Shown: one piece after another, positions 47,384 through 54,464 of the stretch
How positions within the stretch are numbered: the stretch's first letter is position 1
How the letters are laid out: every line of letters starts with the position of its first letter
From: Acidobacteriota bacterium
GTDB taxonomy: Bacteria > Acidobacteriota > Vicinamibacteria > Vicinamibacterales > CAVVIG01
Direction of reading: 5' to 3'
Assembly (NCBI GenBank): GCA_003222395.1
Contig: QHWB01000035.1
Coordinates: 124,001 to 188,000 of the forward strand
Length of the DNA stretch: 64,000 nucleotides
Made by a program: the position numbers and the translations under genes
Notes under the pieces: model-generated
The model's input: only the letters and a program-made list of their open reading frames with translations
Told to the model about the DNA's origin: nothing
Databases searched by the model: none

Positions 47384-48091
47384 ATGGCCGCGCGCATCCT
47401 GATCGTCGAGGACGATCCGGACATCGCGGAGCTCGTGGCGCGCTACCTCGAGAAAGCCGCGTTCGAGACAGATCGCGCCGCATCGGGTCGCGACGCGCTG
47501 CAGATGATCGCGGTGAATCCTCCTGCTCTGGTGGTGCTCGATCTGATGCTGCCGCACGTCGACGGTCTCGAGATCTGCCGGCGTCTGCGCTCGGACCAGA
47601 AGACCGCCGCGATTCCACTCATCATGCTGACCGCGCGCGCCGAGGAGTCGGAGCGGATCGTCGGGCTCGAGCTCGGCGCCGACGATTATCTTGCGAAGCC
47701 ATTCAGTCCGAACGAGCTCGTCGCCCGCGTGCGCGCGCTGCTGCGGCGCGCGCAGCGCCAGGCGAGCGACGCACCTGCGAAGACGCTGACCTATGGCGCG
47801 ATCTCGGTCGATTCGGACCGCCACGTCGTGTCGGCCGGCGGCCGCGACGTCACGCTGACGGCGAAGGAATTCCTGCTGCTCGAGTACCTGCTCCAGCATC
47901 GCGGGCGCGTTCTCTCGCGCGACGTGCTGCTCACCGACGTATGGGGCTACCGCTATACCGGCGGCACACGGACAGTGGACGTGCACGTCCGCCGCCTCCG
48001 CGAGAAGCTGCCGCTGCTCGCCGAAGCGCTGGTGACGGTCAAGCAGTTCGGCTACAAGCTCGTCGACCCGGCGCCGCTGACGCGTGCATGA
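47384..48091 (+). CDS. OmpR/PhoB-family response regulator
   Basis: The protein has 235 residues. The receiver domain (1-120) has the acidic pair EDD, the phosphorylated Asp in [12 protein letters not shown] (about 53), Thr in MLTARAEE and Lys in YLAKPFSP. The winged-helix DNA-binding domain (130-230) has [23 protein letters not shown] and [15 protein letters not shown]. The layout is PhoB-like, but no Pho box was seen in the window. The stop overlaps the kinase ATG (ATGA), so the two proteins are made together. Phosphate regulation is only a guess from nearby pit and pst genes. Confidence 0.88.
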
Positions 48092-49848
48092 GGACGTTTC
48101 AGACGAAGTTCTTCGTCGCCGCCCTGTCGGCCGCGGTACTGGCGCTCACCGTCGCCGGCGCGCTCTTCGCGACGACGATGCGGCGGCAGATCGACAGGCG
48201 CATCGAGAGCACGCTCGTGGCGGAGGCGCGGCTGGCCGCCGAACTCATCGCGCGGGGGACGCCGCTCTCGACGGTGCCGGAGCTCGACGACGAGGCCGAC
48301 CGCATCGGCCAGTTGATCGGCGCGCGGACGACCTTCATTGCGCCCGACGGCACGGTCGTCGGCGATTCGTTCGAGACGCTCCAGGGAATCGCGGCGATGG
48401 AGAACCACGCGCGGCGTCCGGAAGTCCTCGACGCGCGCGCGACCGGCCTCGGCCGCGCCCGCCGCTACAGCGCGACGCTGAAGATGGACATGCTGTACGT
48501 CGCGGTTCCGGTGCAGCACCCGTCGATTGCGTTCGTGCGCGTCGCGCTGCCGCTCACCGACGTGGGGAATCAGCTGCAAGCGGTGCTCAGCGCGACGATG
48601 ACCGCTCTGGGGCTCGCGCTCGTCGGCGCCTCGATCATCGCGTTCGTCATCTCGCAGCGCATCGGCCGGCGCGTGCGTCTCGTCGCCGATGTCGCCCGGC
48701 GGTATCAGTCCGGCGACCTGACGCCGGCGCCGCTCGGCTTCGGCGACGACGAGATCGGCGCCGTGGCGCGCGCGCTCGATCGATCGGTGCAGGAGGTCGG
48801 CCGCCGTCTCGCCGAGCAGGCGCGCGATCGATCGCGGATGGAAGCGATCCTCACCGGCATGGTGGAAGGCGTCATCGTCGTGGATTCACACGCACGGCTG
48901 CAGCTCGTGAACGACGCCGCGCGGCAGATGCTGAAGCTCGACGAAGTCGGCATCGGCCGGCCGTACGTCGAGACGCTTCGCCTCCCGGCGGTCGTCGAGC
49001 TCGTCGCGGCCGTGCTCTTCGGCCGGACGCCCGACGCGCTGCAGTTCTCGCCGCCGCGCGACCCGCAGCGGACGATCATCGCCCGCGCGGCGCCGGCCGC
49101 CGGCGCGGCCGAGCACGGCGTCGTGCTGGTGCTGCACGACATCACCGATTTGCGCCGCGCCGATCAGATCCGCCGCGATTTCGTCGCGAACGTGTCGCAC
49201 GAGCTCCGAACGCCGCTGACCGCGATCCGCGGCTACGTCGAAGCGCTGACGGATGGGAACGCCACTCCGGAGGAGAGCCGCCGGTTCATCGACGTCATTG
49301 GACGACACGCGCTGCGGATGGAGCGGCTGGTCAAAGATCTGCTGCGCTTGGCCCGGCTCGACGCGCGGCAGGAGCCGCTCGAGCTCGTTTCGTGCGACAC
49401 CCGCGGTCTCGCCGACGCGGTCGTCGCAGACGTGACGCCGGCTGCCGTGGAGAGGCATCAGCGGTTCGCCGTGCGCATCGAGCCGGGCGCCGAATCGGTG
49501 CGCGCCGATCCGGCAAAGCTGCACGACGCCCTGAGAAATCTCGTCGCCAACGCCGTCACGTACGCGCCGGCGCAGACGACGATCCTCGTCGACGCGCGCC
49601 GCGTCGACCATCGCGTCGAAATTTCCGTCTCCGATCGGGGGCCGGGCATTCCCGAAGAAGACCTGTCGCGGCTGTTCGAGCGGTTCTATCGCGTCGACGC
49701 GTCGCGCGCGCGCGATCCGGGCGGCACCGGGCTCGGCCTCGCAATCGTGAAGCACCTCGTCGAGCTGCACGGCGGAAACGTGCGCGCGGAGAATCGGCCC
49801 GAAGGCGGTGCGAAGTTCACGATCGCGCTTCCGGCAGCAAGGTCCTGA
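48088..49848 (+). CDS. Sensor histidine kinase (PhoR/VicK-type)
   Basis: The protein has 586 residues. It has membrane helices at about 7-30 and 170-190 around a 140-residue periplasmic sensor region. HAMP (about 190-240) and PAS (about 250-345) domains follow. The DHp domain has the phospho-accepting His in [15 protein letters not shown] (about residue 371). The ATPase domain has [31 protein letters not shown] and [13 protein letters not shown]. It controls the regulator encoded just upstream. The architecture fits PhoR/ResE-type kinases. Its 3' end overlaps the convergent methyltransferase fragment by 32 bp. Confidence 0.9.
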
Positions 49849-50260
49849 TCGCGACCTGCTCGCGCAGCCACAGGCGCGCACCCGGATCGGCGCGCATCAT
49901 CTCCCCTGCGCGGCGATGCGTGACGGCATCGAGGTGCGTGTGCTGCCATTTCGTCGCGATGTAATCGCGCAGCTCGTCCGCGGAATCGGGGTAGCGGTAG
50001 AAGGAGAATTCCTGCTCGCCGGTCACCGACAGGAGTCTGCGTCGAACGACCGTCAACACCGCGAGGTCGGCGGCCAGATGGCGCTGACGCCGCTCGTCGT
50101 CGACGAGGAGACCGCCCACATGCGCGATTGAACCGTCGGGTAATCCGAGCTCGACGTCGGGGACCACATGGGCCGGACGCAGGTCGATGATGCGGCCGGA
50201 GGGCGCCTTCAGCCATCGACGTGCACGATTCAGGGCATCGACCATGCCCTCAGCGGGCAC
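49817..50260 (-). CDS. C-terminal part of a class I SAM methyltransferase (split gene)
   Basis: The 147-codon frame begins at GTG immediately after two stop codons that end the N-terminal part; an internal ATG lies 5 codons later ([11 protein letters not shown]). [22 protein letters not shown] is the alpha-helix and strand after motif post-II of class I methyltransferases. The last 100 residues ([19 protein letters not shown]...[16 protein letters not shown]) are a C-terminal cap I do not recognise. It is in the same frame as the upstream fragment, so it is either a separate polypeptide that reassembles or the remainder of a broken gene. Confidence 0.6.
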
Positions 50261-50263
50261 TCA

Positions 50264-50548
50264 TCACAACGCCCACGAGAACAGCACGGCGTCGACCGAT
50301 TCGTCAGGCAGCGCGAGACGATCGATCGGCATCTCGCGGACCTCCACATTGCCCGGAATGCCGTCCTTTCGGAACGCCGCAAGGGCCGCTTGATCGGGAT
50401 CGACAGCGAGCACCGTGCCGACGTGCCGGCTGTAGCGTCTCGTCAGCCGGCCGTCGCCGCAGCCGACTTCGACGACCACGCAGCGATCAACGGCCGGCAG
50501 CCGCGCCAGCAGCGCATCGACTTCGTGTTCCTCAGGATCGATGATCAT
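50264..50548 (-). CDS. N-terminal part of a class I SAM methyltransferase (split gene)
   Basis: This 94-codon frame has the SAM-binding motif VVEVGCGDGRLTRRYS (about 26-41), the acidic motif VLAVDPDQAAL and the motif II strand SVDAVLFSWAL, where it stops at TGA TGA. In intact relatives the chain continues straight into the segment encoded by the adjacent frame. Both parts are in the same reading frame. TATACT lies 6 bases upstream of the ATG, a leaderless start. Without the C-terminal part no stable fold is expected. Confidence 0.65.
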   Translation of the reverse strand: MIIDPEEHEVDALLARLPAVDRCVVVEVGCGDGRLTRRYSRHVGTVLAVDPDQAALAAFRKDGIPGNVEVREMPIDRLALPDESVDAVLFSWAL

Positions 50549-50554
50549 GCGGGC

Positions 50555-50560
50555 AGTATA
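50555..50560 (-). promoter_or_regulatory. -10 box of the methyltransferase gene
   Basis: TATACT on the minus strand (AGTATA at 50555-50560), six bases before the ATG at 50548. Confidence 0.45.
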
Positions 50561-50603
50561 ACGTTCGACGGATCGCTCGTCGGGTGTTCGTGGACGCCCG
50601 CGG

Positions 50604-51095
50604 CTATCGTCGGCGAGCGCGCCACGACAGGTACGGGTTGAACGCGTCGCCGCTTCCGGGCGCGGCGACTTCGAAGGTACCGGTGAGAGCGCCGTCCGCG
50701 CCGATCGAATACGACAGGCGATAACGCGGCTCCGACGTCTTCGCGTCGCTGAGGAAGACGACGCGGTTGCCGCCGCGTGGCTGCACGGAGTAGCGAATGA
50801 CGTGCCCTTCGTTGTCGAAGTAGTCGGCTTTCAGCGAGCCGCCTTCCGAATAAATCGCCATCAGATCGTCGTGCCGTGACGAAGGACGTCGATTGGTCGC
50901 TTCGTAGATTGCTTCGTTCCTCCTTAGCATCACGTGATCCTGCACCGCCAGTTCGAACGTGAAGCTGCCGCTCTCCCCGGCAGCGGTGTCGATCGCCTGC
51001 CACCGTCCAATCAGAAACTTCAGCTGTGCGAGGTCGTCGGCGCCGAGAGGCCCGGTCAGTACGACGACCATGACGATTGCAGCGAGCGCTTTCAC
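50604..51095 (-). CDS. Secreted DUF1579-like/lipocalin-type small protein
   Basis: The protein has 163 residues from the GTG at 51095, with a signal sequence (VKALAAIVMVVVLTGPLGA). The mature start DDLAQLKFLIGRWQAIDT is typical of DUF1579-like/lipocalin-fold proteins: a short helix followed by GxW in the first strand. The rest is beta-rich (FTFELAVQDHVMLRRNEAIYE, MAIYSEGGSLKADYFDNEG, GDAFNPYLSWRARRR). The GTG was chosen because TATACT is nine bases upstream. A longer start would run through the divergent gene. The ligand is unknown. Confidence 0.65.
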   Translation of the reverse strand: MKALAAIVMVVVLTGPLGADDLAQLKFLIGRWQAIDTAAGESGSFTFELAVQDHVMLRRNEAIYEATNRRPSSRHDDLMAIYSEGGSLKADYFDNEGHVIRYSVQPRGGNRVVFLSDAKTSEPRYRLSYSIGADGALTGTFEVAAPGSGDAFNPYLSWRARRR

Positions 51096-51118
51096 AGGTC
51101 CGTTAGTATAGGCGTCGA
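51096..51118. promoter_or_regulatory. Minimal divergent promoter with a shared symmetrical -10 box
   Basis: Only 23 bp separate the start codons of the DUF1579-like gene (minus) and the PepSY gene (plus). AGTATAGG at 51105-51112 gives TATACT for the minus gene (9 nt from its GTG) and TATAGG or TAGTAT for the plus gene (6-9 nt from its ATG). Each -35 region would lie inside the other gene. Confidence 0.6.
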
Positions 51119-52618
51119 ATGCGCCGCGCGCTGATCTATACGCATCGCTGGCTCGGGATCGGCGGATGTCTGCTGTTCCTCGCCTGGTTCGCGTCCGGCA
51201 TCGTGATGATGTACGCGCGCATGCCGGAACTGCGGCGCTCCGACCGGCTTTCGCGGCTGACGCCGATTCGACCCGAGGCGATCCGCATTTCGCCGGCTGA
51301 TGCCGTTCGCATCGGCGGCGTCGCTCCGTCGGCGATACACCTGTCGACGCTCGAAGGACGACCCGTGTACCGATTGTCGTCGGCACGCGAAGCGGTCACC
51401 GTGTTCGCCGACAGCGGCGACATGCTCGACGGCGTCGAGCGCGGCCGCGCCGTCGCGATCGCCGCCACGTTCGCCGGCGACGCGTCGCCTCGGACACGCT
51501 ATGACGCGCTTCTCGAGCAACCCGATCAATGGACGCTGACCGGTGTGCCGCGCGCCGCGTTTCCTCTGCACCGCCTCGCGGTCGACGATGCGGACCGAAC
51601 CGTTGTCTACGTCTCCGATGCGACGGGCGAGCCGGTCATGCGAACGACCGCTCGCGCCAGGCGATGGGGTTACGCCGGCGCGGTGCTGCACTGGCTGTAT
51701 TTCGCGCCGTTCCGACGGCACGCGACGCTGTGGGCTCAGTCGATCATCTGGCTGTCGATCGCCGGCTGCGCGATGTGCGCGACCGGATTGATCTGGGGCG
51801 TGTGGCGCTACTCGCCGAGCTCGCGGTATCGCTTGAAGCGCAAACACGCGCATTCGCCGTACGCGGGGATGATGCACTGGCATCACTACGCCGGACTGCT
51901 GTTCGGCCTCACGACGTGCAGCTGGATCTTCAGCGGCCTGCTGTCGATGGACCCGTGGGACTGGCATCCGGGCACCGCGCCGACGCGGCATCAGCGCGAG
52001 GCGGTCGCCGGCGGCCGGATCGCGCTCGACGGCGTCACGATTCCGCGCCTGCGTGCGGCGATCGATGCCCTCGCCTCGAAGCCGCGCGACGTCGAGATCG
52101 TGCAGTTCCGCGGCGAGCCTTATCTCGTCGCAGAACCTCGGAACGGAATGATCTCGCTCGCCATGCCGGAGCGGGGGGCGATGACCGAGCTCCCCGAAGC
52201 CGCGCTGCTCGAGTCGGCGCGCGCCGCGATGCTGCCGACGCCGGTCGTCGACACGACGTGGCTGCGCGCGTACGACGCGTATTACTACGATCGGGACGGA
52301 GAATTGCCGCTGCCGATCCTGCGCGTGCGCTATGACGATCCGCAGCAGACGTGGCTCTATTTCGATCCGCACCGCGGCACGATCGCCAGGAAGGAGGAAC
52401 GCTGGAGCCGCGTGAACCGATGGCTGTACCACGGCCTGCACAGTCTTGATTTTCCCTTCCTCTACTATCACCGCCCGCTGTGGGATGTGGTGGTCATTGC
52501 GCTGAGCGCCGGCGGAATCGTCTCGACCGTCACGGCGGCGGCGCCGGCCTTGCGTCGGCTGCGCCGGCACGCACGGCGAATGCGCGCGCGGCGGGCGCGG
52601 CTCAGAATTCCGCTCTGA
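51119..52618 (+). CDS. PepSY-associated membrane protein (siderophore-reductase-like)
   Basis: The protein has 499 residues. It has membrane helices at about 12-33, 195-225, 255-280 and 460-485, with PepSY-type periplasmic segments between them. HRWLGIGGCLLFLAWFASG is the first PepSY_TM helix. MHWHHYAGLLFGLTTCSWIFSGLLSM is the second signature with two His that may bind heme. LYHGLHSLDFPFLYYHRPLW is the third, again with His. These proteins are found beside TonB-dependent siderophore receptors and are thought to reduce ferric complexes. A decayed receptor lies right after it. Confidence 0.8.
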   Translation: MRRALIYTHRWLGIGGCLLFLAWFASGIVMMYARMPELRRSDRLSRLTPIRPEAIRISPADAVRIGGVAPSAIHLSTLEGRPVYRLSSAREAVTVFADSGDMLDGVERGRAVAIAATFAGDASPRTRYDALLEQPDQWTLTGVPRAAFPLHRLAVDDADRTVVYVSDATGEPVMRTTARARRWGYAGAVLHWLYFAPFRRHATLWAQSIIWLSIAGCAMCATGLIWGVWRYSPSSRYRLKRKHAHSPYAGMMHWHHYAGLLFGLTTCSWIFSGLLSMDPWDWHPGTAPTRHQREAVAGGRIALDGVTIPRLRAAIDALASKPRDVEIVQFRGEPYLVAEPRNGMISLAMPERGAMTELPEAALLESARAAMLPTPVVDTTWLRAYDAYYYDRDGELPLPILRVRYDDPQQTWLYFDPHRGTIARKEERWSRVNRWLYHGLHSLDFPFLYYHRPLWDVVVIALSAGGIVSTVTAAAPALRRLRRHARRMRARRARLRIPL

Positions 52619-52832
52619 TCCGGACCGCGACGCTGCGCGGCTGACCGACGGCCGTGCCCGAGAACACGCCCGCGAAATTGATCACGTTTCAGCCGGTTCG
52701 CCAGGTTGCGCACGTCCACGCCGCACTGAGCCGGCATGCCCTGCGCGTCGGCGACGTGATGCGCAGGCCGCCGGTGGCGGTCTGACTGAATTGCGCCATC
52801 ACGATCGCAGCCGCGAGGACAGAGGCGATCAT
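52602..52832 (-). pseudogene. Collapsed TonB-dependent receptor relic
   Basis: Minus strand: it starts with a signal-peptide-like MIASVLAAAIVMAQFSQTATGGLRIT, where ATGGLRIT is a usual opening of the carboxypeptidase-regulatory-like domain of such receptors. It continues, in a shifted frame, through VADAQGMPAQCGVDVRNLANR. After a further one-base shift come VINFAGVFSGTAVGQPR and the terminal RIRAEF of a receptor barrel, followed by TGA. The entire plug and barrel, more than 600 residues, is missing between the first and last parts. It overlaps the PepSY gene's 3' end by 17 bp. Confidence 0.6.
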
Positions 52833-52845
52833 GGCTCAGGGGCGG

Positions 52846-53841
52846 TCATCGAGCGCCGGCGATGCGCAGGATCGTGAACGCTGCCGCCGCGATCAGAAAT
52901 GCGGCGGGGATCGTGAGCAGCCATGCCCACACGATTTGTCCGGCGATCCCCCACCGCACCGCGGAGAGACGCCGCGTGGCGCCGACGCCGACGATCGATC
53001 CGGTGATCGCGTGCGTCGTGCTGACGGGAACGCCCGCTTGCGTCGCGATCAGAATCGACAGCGCCGCGCCGGTCTCTGCAGCGAAGCCGCCTACCGGCTG
53101 GAGCTTGGTGATCTTCGATCCCATCGTATGAATGATGCGCCAGCCGCCGGCGAGCGTGCCGAGGCCGATGGCGGTGTGCGCCGCGAGCACGACCCAGAAC
53201 GGGATGTCGAATTTCTGGATGTAGCCGGCCGCGAACAACACGCCGGCGATGATGCCCATCGTCTTCTGCGCGTCGTTCGCGCCGTGATTGAGACTGAAGA
53301 ACGCCGCCGAGAGGAGCTGCAGGCGTCGGAACCACCGATCGACGCGCGACGGCGGCATGCCCTGGTACAGCCAGAAGATCGAGGTCATCAGCGACAGCCC
53401 GAGCAGCATGCCGATGAGCGGCGACAGCACGATGAAGAGCAGCGTCTTGGTCCATCCCGCCGGAATGATCGCGAGCCACCCTGCCTTGGCGACCGCGGCG
53501 CCGGCGTAGCCGCCGATGAGCGCGTGCGAGGAACTGGTCGGCAGGCCGTAAAACCACGTGATCAGATCCCACGTGATCGCACCGAGAAGACCGGCCAGGA
53601 TGACCGCGAAGCTGACGACGTTGATGTCGATCATGCCCGACCCGACGGTCTTCGCGACGGCGGTGCCGAACGTGAACGCCGCGACGAAATTGAAGAACGC
53701 GGCCCAGATGACCGCCTTGCCCGGCGAGAGCACGCGCGTCGACACCACCGTCGCGATCGAGTTCGCGGCGTCGTGAAATCCGTTGATGTAGTCGAAGAGC
53801 AGCGCGACCAGGATGAGGCCGGTGACAACGGCGAACAGCAT
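52846..53841 (-). CDS. pit: Pit-family low-affinity phosphate transporter
   Basis: The protein has 331 residues with about ten hydrophobic segments. The duplicated family signature appears as LLFDYINGFHDAANSIATVV near the N-terminus and FFSLNHGANDAQKTMGIIAG in the middle. FYGLPTSSSHALIGGYAG and AGVPVSTTHAITGSIVGVG are the matching P-loop-like motifs. It moves metal-phosphate with protons across the inner membrane. The ATG at 53841 was chosen because it precedes the first helix; the DUF47 gene ends 5 bp upstream, indicating an operon. Confidence 0.9.
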   Translation of the reverse strand: MLFAVVTGLILVALLFDYINGFHDAANSIATVVSTRVLSPGKAVIWAAFFNFVAAFTFGTAVAKTVGSGMIDINVVSFAVILAGLLGAITWDLITWFYGLPTSSSHALIGGYAGAAVAKAGWLAIIPAGWTKTLLFIVLSPLIGMLLGLSLMTSIFWLYQGMPPSRVDRWFRRLQLLSAAFFSLNHGANDAQKTMGIIAGVLFAAGYIQKFDIPFWVVLAAHTAIGLGTLAGGWRIIHTMGSKITKLQPVGGFAAETGAALSILIATQAGVPVSTTHAITGSIVGVGATRRLSAVRWGIAGQIVWAWLLTIPAAFLIAAAAFTILRIAGAR

Positions 53842-53846
53842 GGCCG

Positions 53847-54464
53847 TTATCCGTGCTTGACCACGACGCCTTCGAGGACGTTGGCGACGTCTTCGCAGCG
53901 GTCGGTGGCGTCTTCGAGGAAGTCGAGCGTCTCCTTCCATTTCATGACGAGGAGCGGATCGCGCTCGTCGTCGAACAGGCGGCTGACCGCCTGCTGGTGC
54001 GTGCGGTCGGCCTCGTTCTCGAGCCGGTTGATCTCCACCGCGTGCGTGATGATGCCGCTGTGATTCTCCAGCGCGTCGAGCGCCAGCCGCAGCTGATGCG
54101 TCGACACGCTGATGATGTGCGCGAGCTCGCGGGCGCCGTAGCGGACGCTGTCGAGCCGGTACAGACGAATCAGCGCCGCCGACGCGTCGATCGCGTCCAT
54201 CACGTCGTCGAGCGATCGCGCCAGCGCGTGGATGTCTTCGCGATCGATTGGCGTGACGAAGGTGCGGTTGAGGCGCTGGATGACCTCGTGCGTGAGGAAG
54301 TCGCATTTGTGCTCGACTTCCTTGATCTCGTCGGCCTTGTCCCACACCGGCCGCTCCGGCGCGAGCATCGCCTCGAGCAGCGCGGCACCTTTTTTCAACT
54401 CGTCGGCGAGCGCCTGGAAGTCCTTGTAGAACTTCTCCTCACGCGGGATCAATCGGAAGGCCAT
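53847..54464 (-). CDS. DUF47 (PhoU-like) phosphate transport regulator
   Basis: The protein has 205 residues, almost all helical. MAFRLIPREEKFYKDFQALADEL, a KADEIKEVEHKCDFLTHEVIQRLNRTFVTPIDREDIHALARSLDDVMDAI stretch (E-x3-D metal ligands, PhoU-like) and INRLENEADRTHQQAVSRLFDDERDPLLVMKWKE are diagnostic. DUF47 proteins pair with Pit transporters and probably tune phosphate uptake. TACAAT lies 10 bases upstream of the ATG. It is the first gene of the operon with pit. Confidence 0.9.
   Translation of the reverse strand: MAFRLIPREEKFYKDFQALADELKKGAALLEAMLAPERPVWDKADEIKEVEHKCDFLTHEVIQRLNRTFVTPIDREDIHALARSLDDVMDAIDASAALIRLYRLDSVRYGARELAHIISVSTHQLRLALDALENHSGIITHAVEINRLENEADRTHQQAVSRLFDDERDPLLVMKWKETLDFLEDATDRCEDVANVLEGVVVKHG

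Follow-up and report, generated by a model that had tools for sequence, protein, structure and literature searches.

The 23 bp between two divergently oriented genes of an Acidobacteriota genome probably constitute a minimal bidirectional promoter, which would act by -10 symmetry and yield two leaderless, or nearly leaderless, mRNAs. The gap lies in a window of 64,000 nucleotides (positions 124001 to 188000 of its contig, in a genome of 7.74 Mb) and separates a gene for a 163-aa protein on the minus strand from a gene for a PepSY_TM protein on the plus strand. This reading is based on the sequence and geometry of the gap, on the leaderless signature of the genome, and on the recurrence and conservation of the design in the class; the start sites, the promoter activity, leaderless translation and the order of events are what we infer.

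One box between two start codons

The minus gene begins with a GTG at 51095 (CAC at 51093-51095 of the forward strand) and the plus gene with an ATG at 51119-51121. The first-pass annotation had placed two divergent genes 23 bp apart at these starts; its coordinates proved exact, and both starts were chosen again by a dicodon gene caller blind to upstream signals. The plus start cannot be moved upstream, since an in-frame stop codon (TAG, 51104-51106, inside the -10 box) is reached with no start codon in between, and the minus gene has no alternative start codon upstream for 291 nt. On either strand, the longest match to a Shine-Dalgarno site was 3 nt. Both genes are real, as homologs exist in 17 of the 149 genomes searched for the 163-aa protein and in 26 of the 60 searched for the PepSY_TM protein (own genome included in each count). 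The match of the 163-aa protein to the Pfam family THAP4_heme-bd was below the cut-off (E 0.037). The coordinates of these and the neighboring features are collected in Table 1.

Table 1. Features of the 23-bp gap and its surroundings (window coordinates)
Feature	Position	Strand	Remarks
PhoR-like histidine kinase	48088..49848	+	homolog adjoins the permease in many relatives
163-aa protein, apparent signal peptide	50604..51095	-	weakly THAP4/nitrobindin-like
Intergenic gap, flanked by both start codons	51096..51118		23 bp; sequence AGGTCCGTTAGTATAGGCGTCGA
TAGTATA, 7-bp TANNNTA core	51104..51110	both	from sequence; geometry as in the accessible part of PMC10268837
TAGTAT, candidate -10 of the plus gene	51104..51109	+	4/6 of TATAAT; ends 9 bp before ATG
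TATACT, candidate -10 of the minus gene	51105..51110	-	5/6 of TATAAT; ends 9 bp before GTG
PepSY_TM protein, 499 aa	51119..52618	+	Pfam 29.7 bits, cut-off 28.8
Frameshifted, shortened remnant, probably of a TonB-dependent-receptor-like gene	52605..52832	-	convergent with the PepSY gene; inferred from the frames and the tail
PHO4/PiT-type phosphate permease	52846..53841	-	
DUF47 (PhoU_div) gene	53847..54464	-	ahead of the permease

As TANNNTA is its own reverse complement, a single 7-bp word contains both candidate -10 boxes, with -11A and -7T reciprocally paired. Indeed, A51105 and T51109 stand at -11 and -7 for the plus gene and at -7 and -11 for the minus gene, which is the reciprocal pairing by which -10 symmetry is recognized. 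The 9-bp spacer on either side falls inside the 6-11 bp range where TANNNT words peak in this genome, and TATACT is the sole TANNNT in the 300 bp upstream of the minus gene. Sequence and context support the single shared box, readable as TAGTAT (plus) or TATACT (minus), and the (near-)leaderless starts of both genes that had been proposed in the first-pass annotation; its additional reading of the box as TATAGG fails because the T at -7 is missing. Each -35 box had also been assigned to the coding sequence of the partner gene. None was recognizable there, as nothing scored above 2/6 on either strand at spacers of 15-19, and -35 matches were not enriched at the leaderless-type starts of this genome (best match 2.62 of 6 vs 2.50 in controls). 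An extended -10 was absent on both strands.

The usual distance from the -10 to +1 would give leaders of 2-4 nt. The candidate purine starts, G51117 (plus) and A51099 (minus), are 18 bp apart and would leave leaders of 2 and 4 nt, respectively; strictly leaderless starts would stand 24 bp apart. Promoters of the -10-symmetry kind are expected to have a T at -18 from each start; with starts assumed at 51117 and 51099, the plus direction has a T there (T51099) and the minus direction a C (51117). To call this one of the most compact bidirectional promoters possible, as was done initially, was an overstatement: two 6-bp spacers would permit a gap of 17 bp, and in the same genome one pair, with TATAAT on both strands, is separated by 20 bp and two others by 17 bp.

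Leaderless starts and compact divergent pairs

Leaderless genes are normal in the window's genome, since TANNNT is enriched 6-11 bp before its starts. In a sample of 1.03 Mb with 722 called genes, 83 such boxes were observed against 22.9 expected from positions 20-53 upstream of the starts, an excess corresponding to about 8% of the genes. The same held for three other genomes, with 24 observed vs 7.2 expected in G029, 12 vs 4.1 in G007 and 12 vs 4.6 in G030. Across 89 such boxes of the window's genome, A occupied the fourth and fifth places in 44% and 45%, respectively, a TATAAT signature that the search itself did not impose. Leaderless genes were reported in all three Acidobacteria genomes covered by the accessible part of PMC3160421, with a mean of 13.3%.

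Nine of the 119 divergent pairs of the window's genome had gaps of 15-26 bp, and four of these nine carried a box on both sides at a spacer of 5-12; shuffling the nine gaps 20,000 times never gave as many as the four two-sided cases observed. When the four genomes were pooled, two-sided boxes were found in 6/11 gaps of 15-26 bp vs 3/208 otherwise (Fisher 2.6e-7), G029 and G030 having no divergent gaps of that size and hence contributing nothing to the 11. In the window's genome, two-sided pairs outside this range numbered 0/110 with a 17-base upstream window and 1/110 with an 18-base window, the latter being the figure used. A peak of gap length was considered as a signal by itself and rejected, for this genome has nine gaps of 15-26 bp but also seven of 39-50 bp. 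Divergent gaps were long in the 50 kb listed of Deinococcus deserti plasmid 3, for which E. coli K-12 served as the control; this sample was small and was excluded from the counts.

The exact pattern CAT-N8-TANNNTA-N8-ATG was matched 36 times, spread over 32 of 149 genomes, and the reversed-pattern control about 25 times (both totals counted by hand among the matches listed); the window's genome, where the minus start is a GTG, had no match. A scrambled ATNNNAT pattern was matched in 74/149 genomes. Class-wide scans for the exact 9/9 pattern are uninformative because the excess over the reversed pattern is small and ATNNNAT is common in coding DNA. Near-identical sites like CATACCTGCCATATAGTAAGTCGCGCATG, which fit the 9/9 pattern, were seen in six genomes of one genus (L093, L094, L095, L097 and L099).

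Two other compact pairs could be followed across relatives. The GH57/LptFG pair of G007 was traced over 60 genomes, with 29 of 30 loci analysed (L226-L253). The pair was present at 27 loci and its gap was 30 bp or less at 16 of them; both boxes were found in 9 of these 16 vs 0.38 expected from shuffles, a comparison that yields no probability because the rows are related. TANNNTA occurred in 12 of the 16, chiefly as TAGTCTA or TACTCTA, and this core was conserved in many genera. Where the gap had grown to 40-130 bp, the GH57-side box was mostly still 6-7 bp from the start codon. The second pair, GNAT/chlorite-dismutase-like, comes from the window's own genome. With 12 of 30 loci analysed, it was present at 11, with a gap of 0-30 bp at six of these and both boxes at five of the six; L257 and L264 had negative gaps by the nearest-start rule and were counted as non-compact, L264 alternatively reading as 22 bp. 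The core was mostly ATTATACT, and its reverse complement AGTATAAT in others (L256-L266), as if two-way competence alone had been retained. Since the shared box was retained across genera in both pairs, it appears to be under selection there. Gene pair and shared box were thus kept together in relatives of these two; for the window's pair they were not. Such conserved pairs make the idea testable because the box can be traced across genera while its flanks drift, and GH57/LptFG, with its TAGTCTA/TACTCTA core, is better suited to such a test than the pair of the window.

The box of the GH57/LptFG pair was retained on the GH57 side at 20/27 loci and on the partner side at 10/27. This imbalance is also what would be expected if the window's box were a directional promoter for the minus gene only, the PepSY gene being transcribed from elsewhere, for instance by read-through or from a weak promoter located within the small gene. 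The better match of TATACT than of TAGTAT to the consensus points the same way, as does the presence on the plus strand of three TANNNT words in the 300 bp upstream, of which two lie at distances of 188 and 208 bp. We nevertheless consider this reading unlikely: the distance from TAGTAT to the ATG is the one favored by the genome, and no sigma-70-like site was found in 50600-51600.

Relation to known promoters and proposed mechanism

Bidirectional promoters arising from -10 symmetry were reportedly described by Warman, Grainger and colleagues, the founding paper dating from 2021. In the accessible parts of PMC12825309 and PMC10268837 the divergent starts are spaced by 18 bp, and in the latter the reciprocal pairing of -11A with -7T is the configuration for starts at this distance. 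As described in those parts, such promoters share with the window's gap a single near-palindromic -10 for both strands, the reciprocal -11A/-7T of the 18-bp configuration, a -35 that is poor or absent and, often, a location between divergent genes. The gap differs from them in that its start codons abut the box, leaving almost no leader on either side; the word "leaderless" is absent from the accessible part of PMC12825309. Leaderless genes, in turn, have a TANNNT just before the start and no Shine-Dalgarno site, also in Acidobacteria (PMC3160421, PMC12340547 and PMC3898074, each in its accessible part). There, however, they are described singly, whereas here one box would serve two genes; "divergent" and "bidirectional" do not occur in the accessible part of PMC12340547, nor "divergent" in that of PMC3160421.

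In M. tuberculosis closely juxtaposed divergent promoters are common, and prpD and Rv1129c are divergent genes with both mRNAs leaderless (PMC3898074, accessible part and figure legend), but the passage does not state how large the gap is and shows no shared -10. The lysG/lysE pair of the same species (PMC5648196, accessible part) is likewise divergent, with overlapping promoters and one leaderless start; it differs in its gap of 108 bp with a regulator site, and its leaderless promoter is a second lysE promoter. A search that reached papers free of subscription, several of them in part, returned no published description of the double-leaderless combination on a shared box. The parts are known, and the combination is a variant not found in print, unusually tight and apparently recurring.

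In the mechanism that we propose, the near-palindromic TAGTATA would let the main RNA polymerase bind either way round, and the -10 should carry the recognition because no -35 is evident. Transcribing leftward from near 51099-51095, the polymerase would make the mRNA of the secreted-looking protein, which would begin with the GTG or have almost no leader; transcribing rightward from near 51116-51119, it would make that of the PepSY_TM protein, which would begin with the AUG or, again, have almost no leader. On either mRNA, ribosomes would initiate at the 5' end without a Shine-Dalgarno site. The minus direction (TATACT) should outperform the plus direction (TAGTAT), and the box would be usable by one polymerase at a time. 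The bidirectional promoters of E. coli have low basal activity, and their directions compete only when one of them is strongly activated (PMC12825309, accessible part); we would expect the same here.

If this promoter is real, little more than a 7-bp box can drive a gene pair, and in poorly cultivated bacteria the sequence of a gap alone would predict that expression is coupled and mutually exclusive. Two published ideas, -10 symmetry and leaderless translation, would be united in nearly the least space that accommodates both. We are more hesitant about a wider proposal, which we put forward as a tentative possibility: this Acidobacteriota group may have a distinct and conserved class of promoters whose entire control region, shared by two divergent leaderless mRNAs, would be a single TANNNTA or ATTATA(A/C)T box with no leader, Shine-Dalgarno site or -35, so that the orientation of the polymerase alone would divide expression. 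The window's pair suggests that, were this class to exist, an inserted gene could readily supply a promoter to a neighbor that it has severed from an operon.

Origin of the window's pair

Conservation of the window's own pair was searched for across relatives and rejected: in sets of 36 and 18 loci, some with short flanks, no homolog of the 163-aa protein stood beside a PepSY homolog other than in the window itself. In G016 and G026 the order is DUF47-permease-small gene, with the 163-aa homolog directly after the PHO4/PiT permease. Among 24 permease loci from 28 genomes, a match to the PhoR-like kinase was present in the flank at 12, and a PepSY match beside the permease only in the window's genome. 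The 228-bp remnant that separates the PepSY gene from the permease has a signal-like head and a tail like an outer-membrane TonB-type barrel; the tail weakly resembles the end of an OMP_b-brl_4 protein that the same genome encodes (E 0.26). Three pieces of it gave no Pfam match, and a plasmid search with the tail gave none either. In G019, the PepSY homolog is preceded by a gene whose start looks TonB-receptor-like by eye.

The window's arrangement is probably young. The simplest reading of these gene orders is that a receptor-PepSY cassette was apparently inserted between permease and small gene: the PepSY gene, together with a TonB-receptor-like gene that has since decayed, would have entered there, and its promoter box would now also face the small gene. 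The reverse order may also apply, with loss in G016 and G026 instead of insertion.

A lineage-specific pair with a decayed neighbor would also fit a gap with no working promoter, that is, an AT-rich leftover of the insertion, both genes being weakly transcribed or silent. Support from the window's gap taken alone is modest. Given one box, the second needs little beyond one more A, so that two-sidedness is cheap, and both boxes at a spacer of 5-12 appeared in 3.0% of 200,000 shuffled versions of the gap. A TANNNTA in the central place, on the other hand, appeared in just 0.28% of the 200,000, and among 6,454 other CAY/RTG pairs spaced 17-25 bp in the sampled genome, 17 (0.26%) had both boxes. 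Because neither reading frame is interrupted, both score clearly as coding, and the design is found again, and conserved, at other sites, we judge a silent gap to be quite improbable. A misplaced start of the small gene, with translation from the in-frame ATG at 51071 (codon 9, by eye a weaker alternative) and a normal leader, is also very doubtful, because the GTG-started VKALAAIV resembles the homolog starts MKTLMALA (G026) and MRTALAVA (G016), the charged start of the signal peptide would be deleted, and inspection by eye showed no Shine-Dalgarno site at that ATG.

Two further observations concern the surroundings of the proposed bidirectional promoter. Between the permease and the PhoR-like kinase (49848-52846) the extra genes differ among relatives, like an insertion hot spot. 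At 49817-50548, two consecutive minus-strand ORFs look like one methyltransferase that a stop has split: the first ORF's Pfam match breaks off early and, by eye, the second ORF carries the methyltransferase on. This looks like decay or an assembly error.
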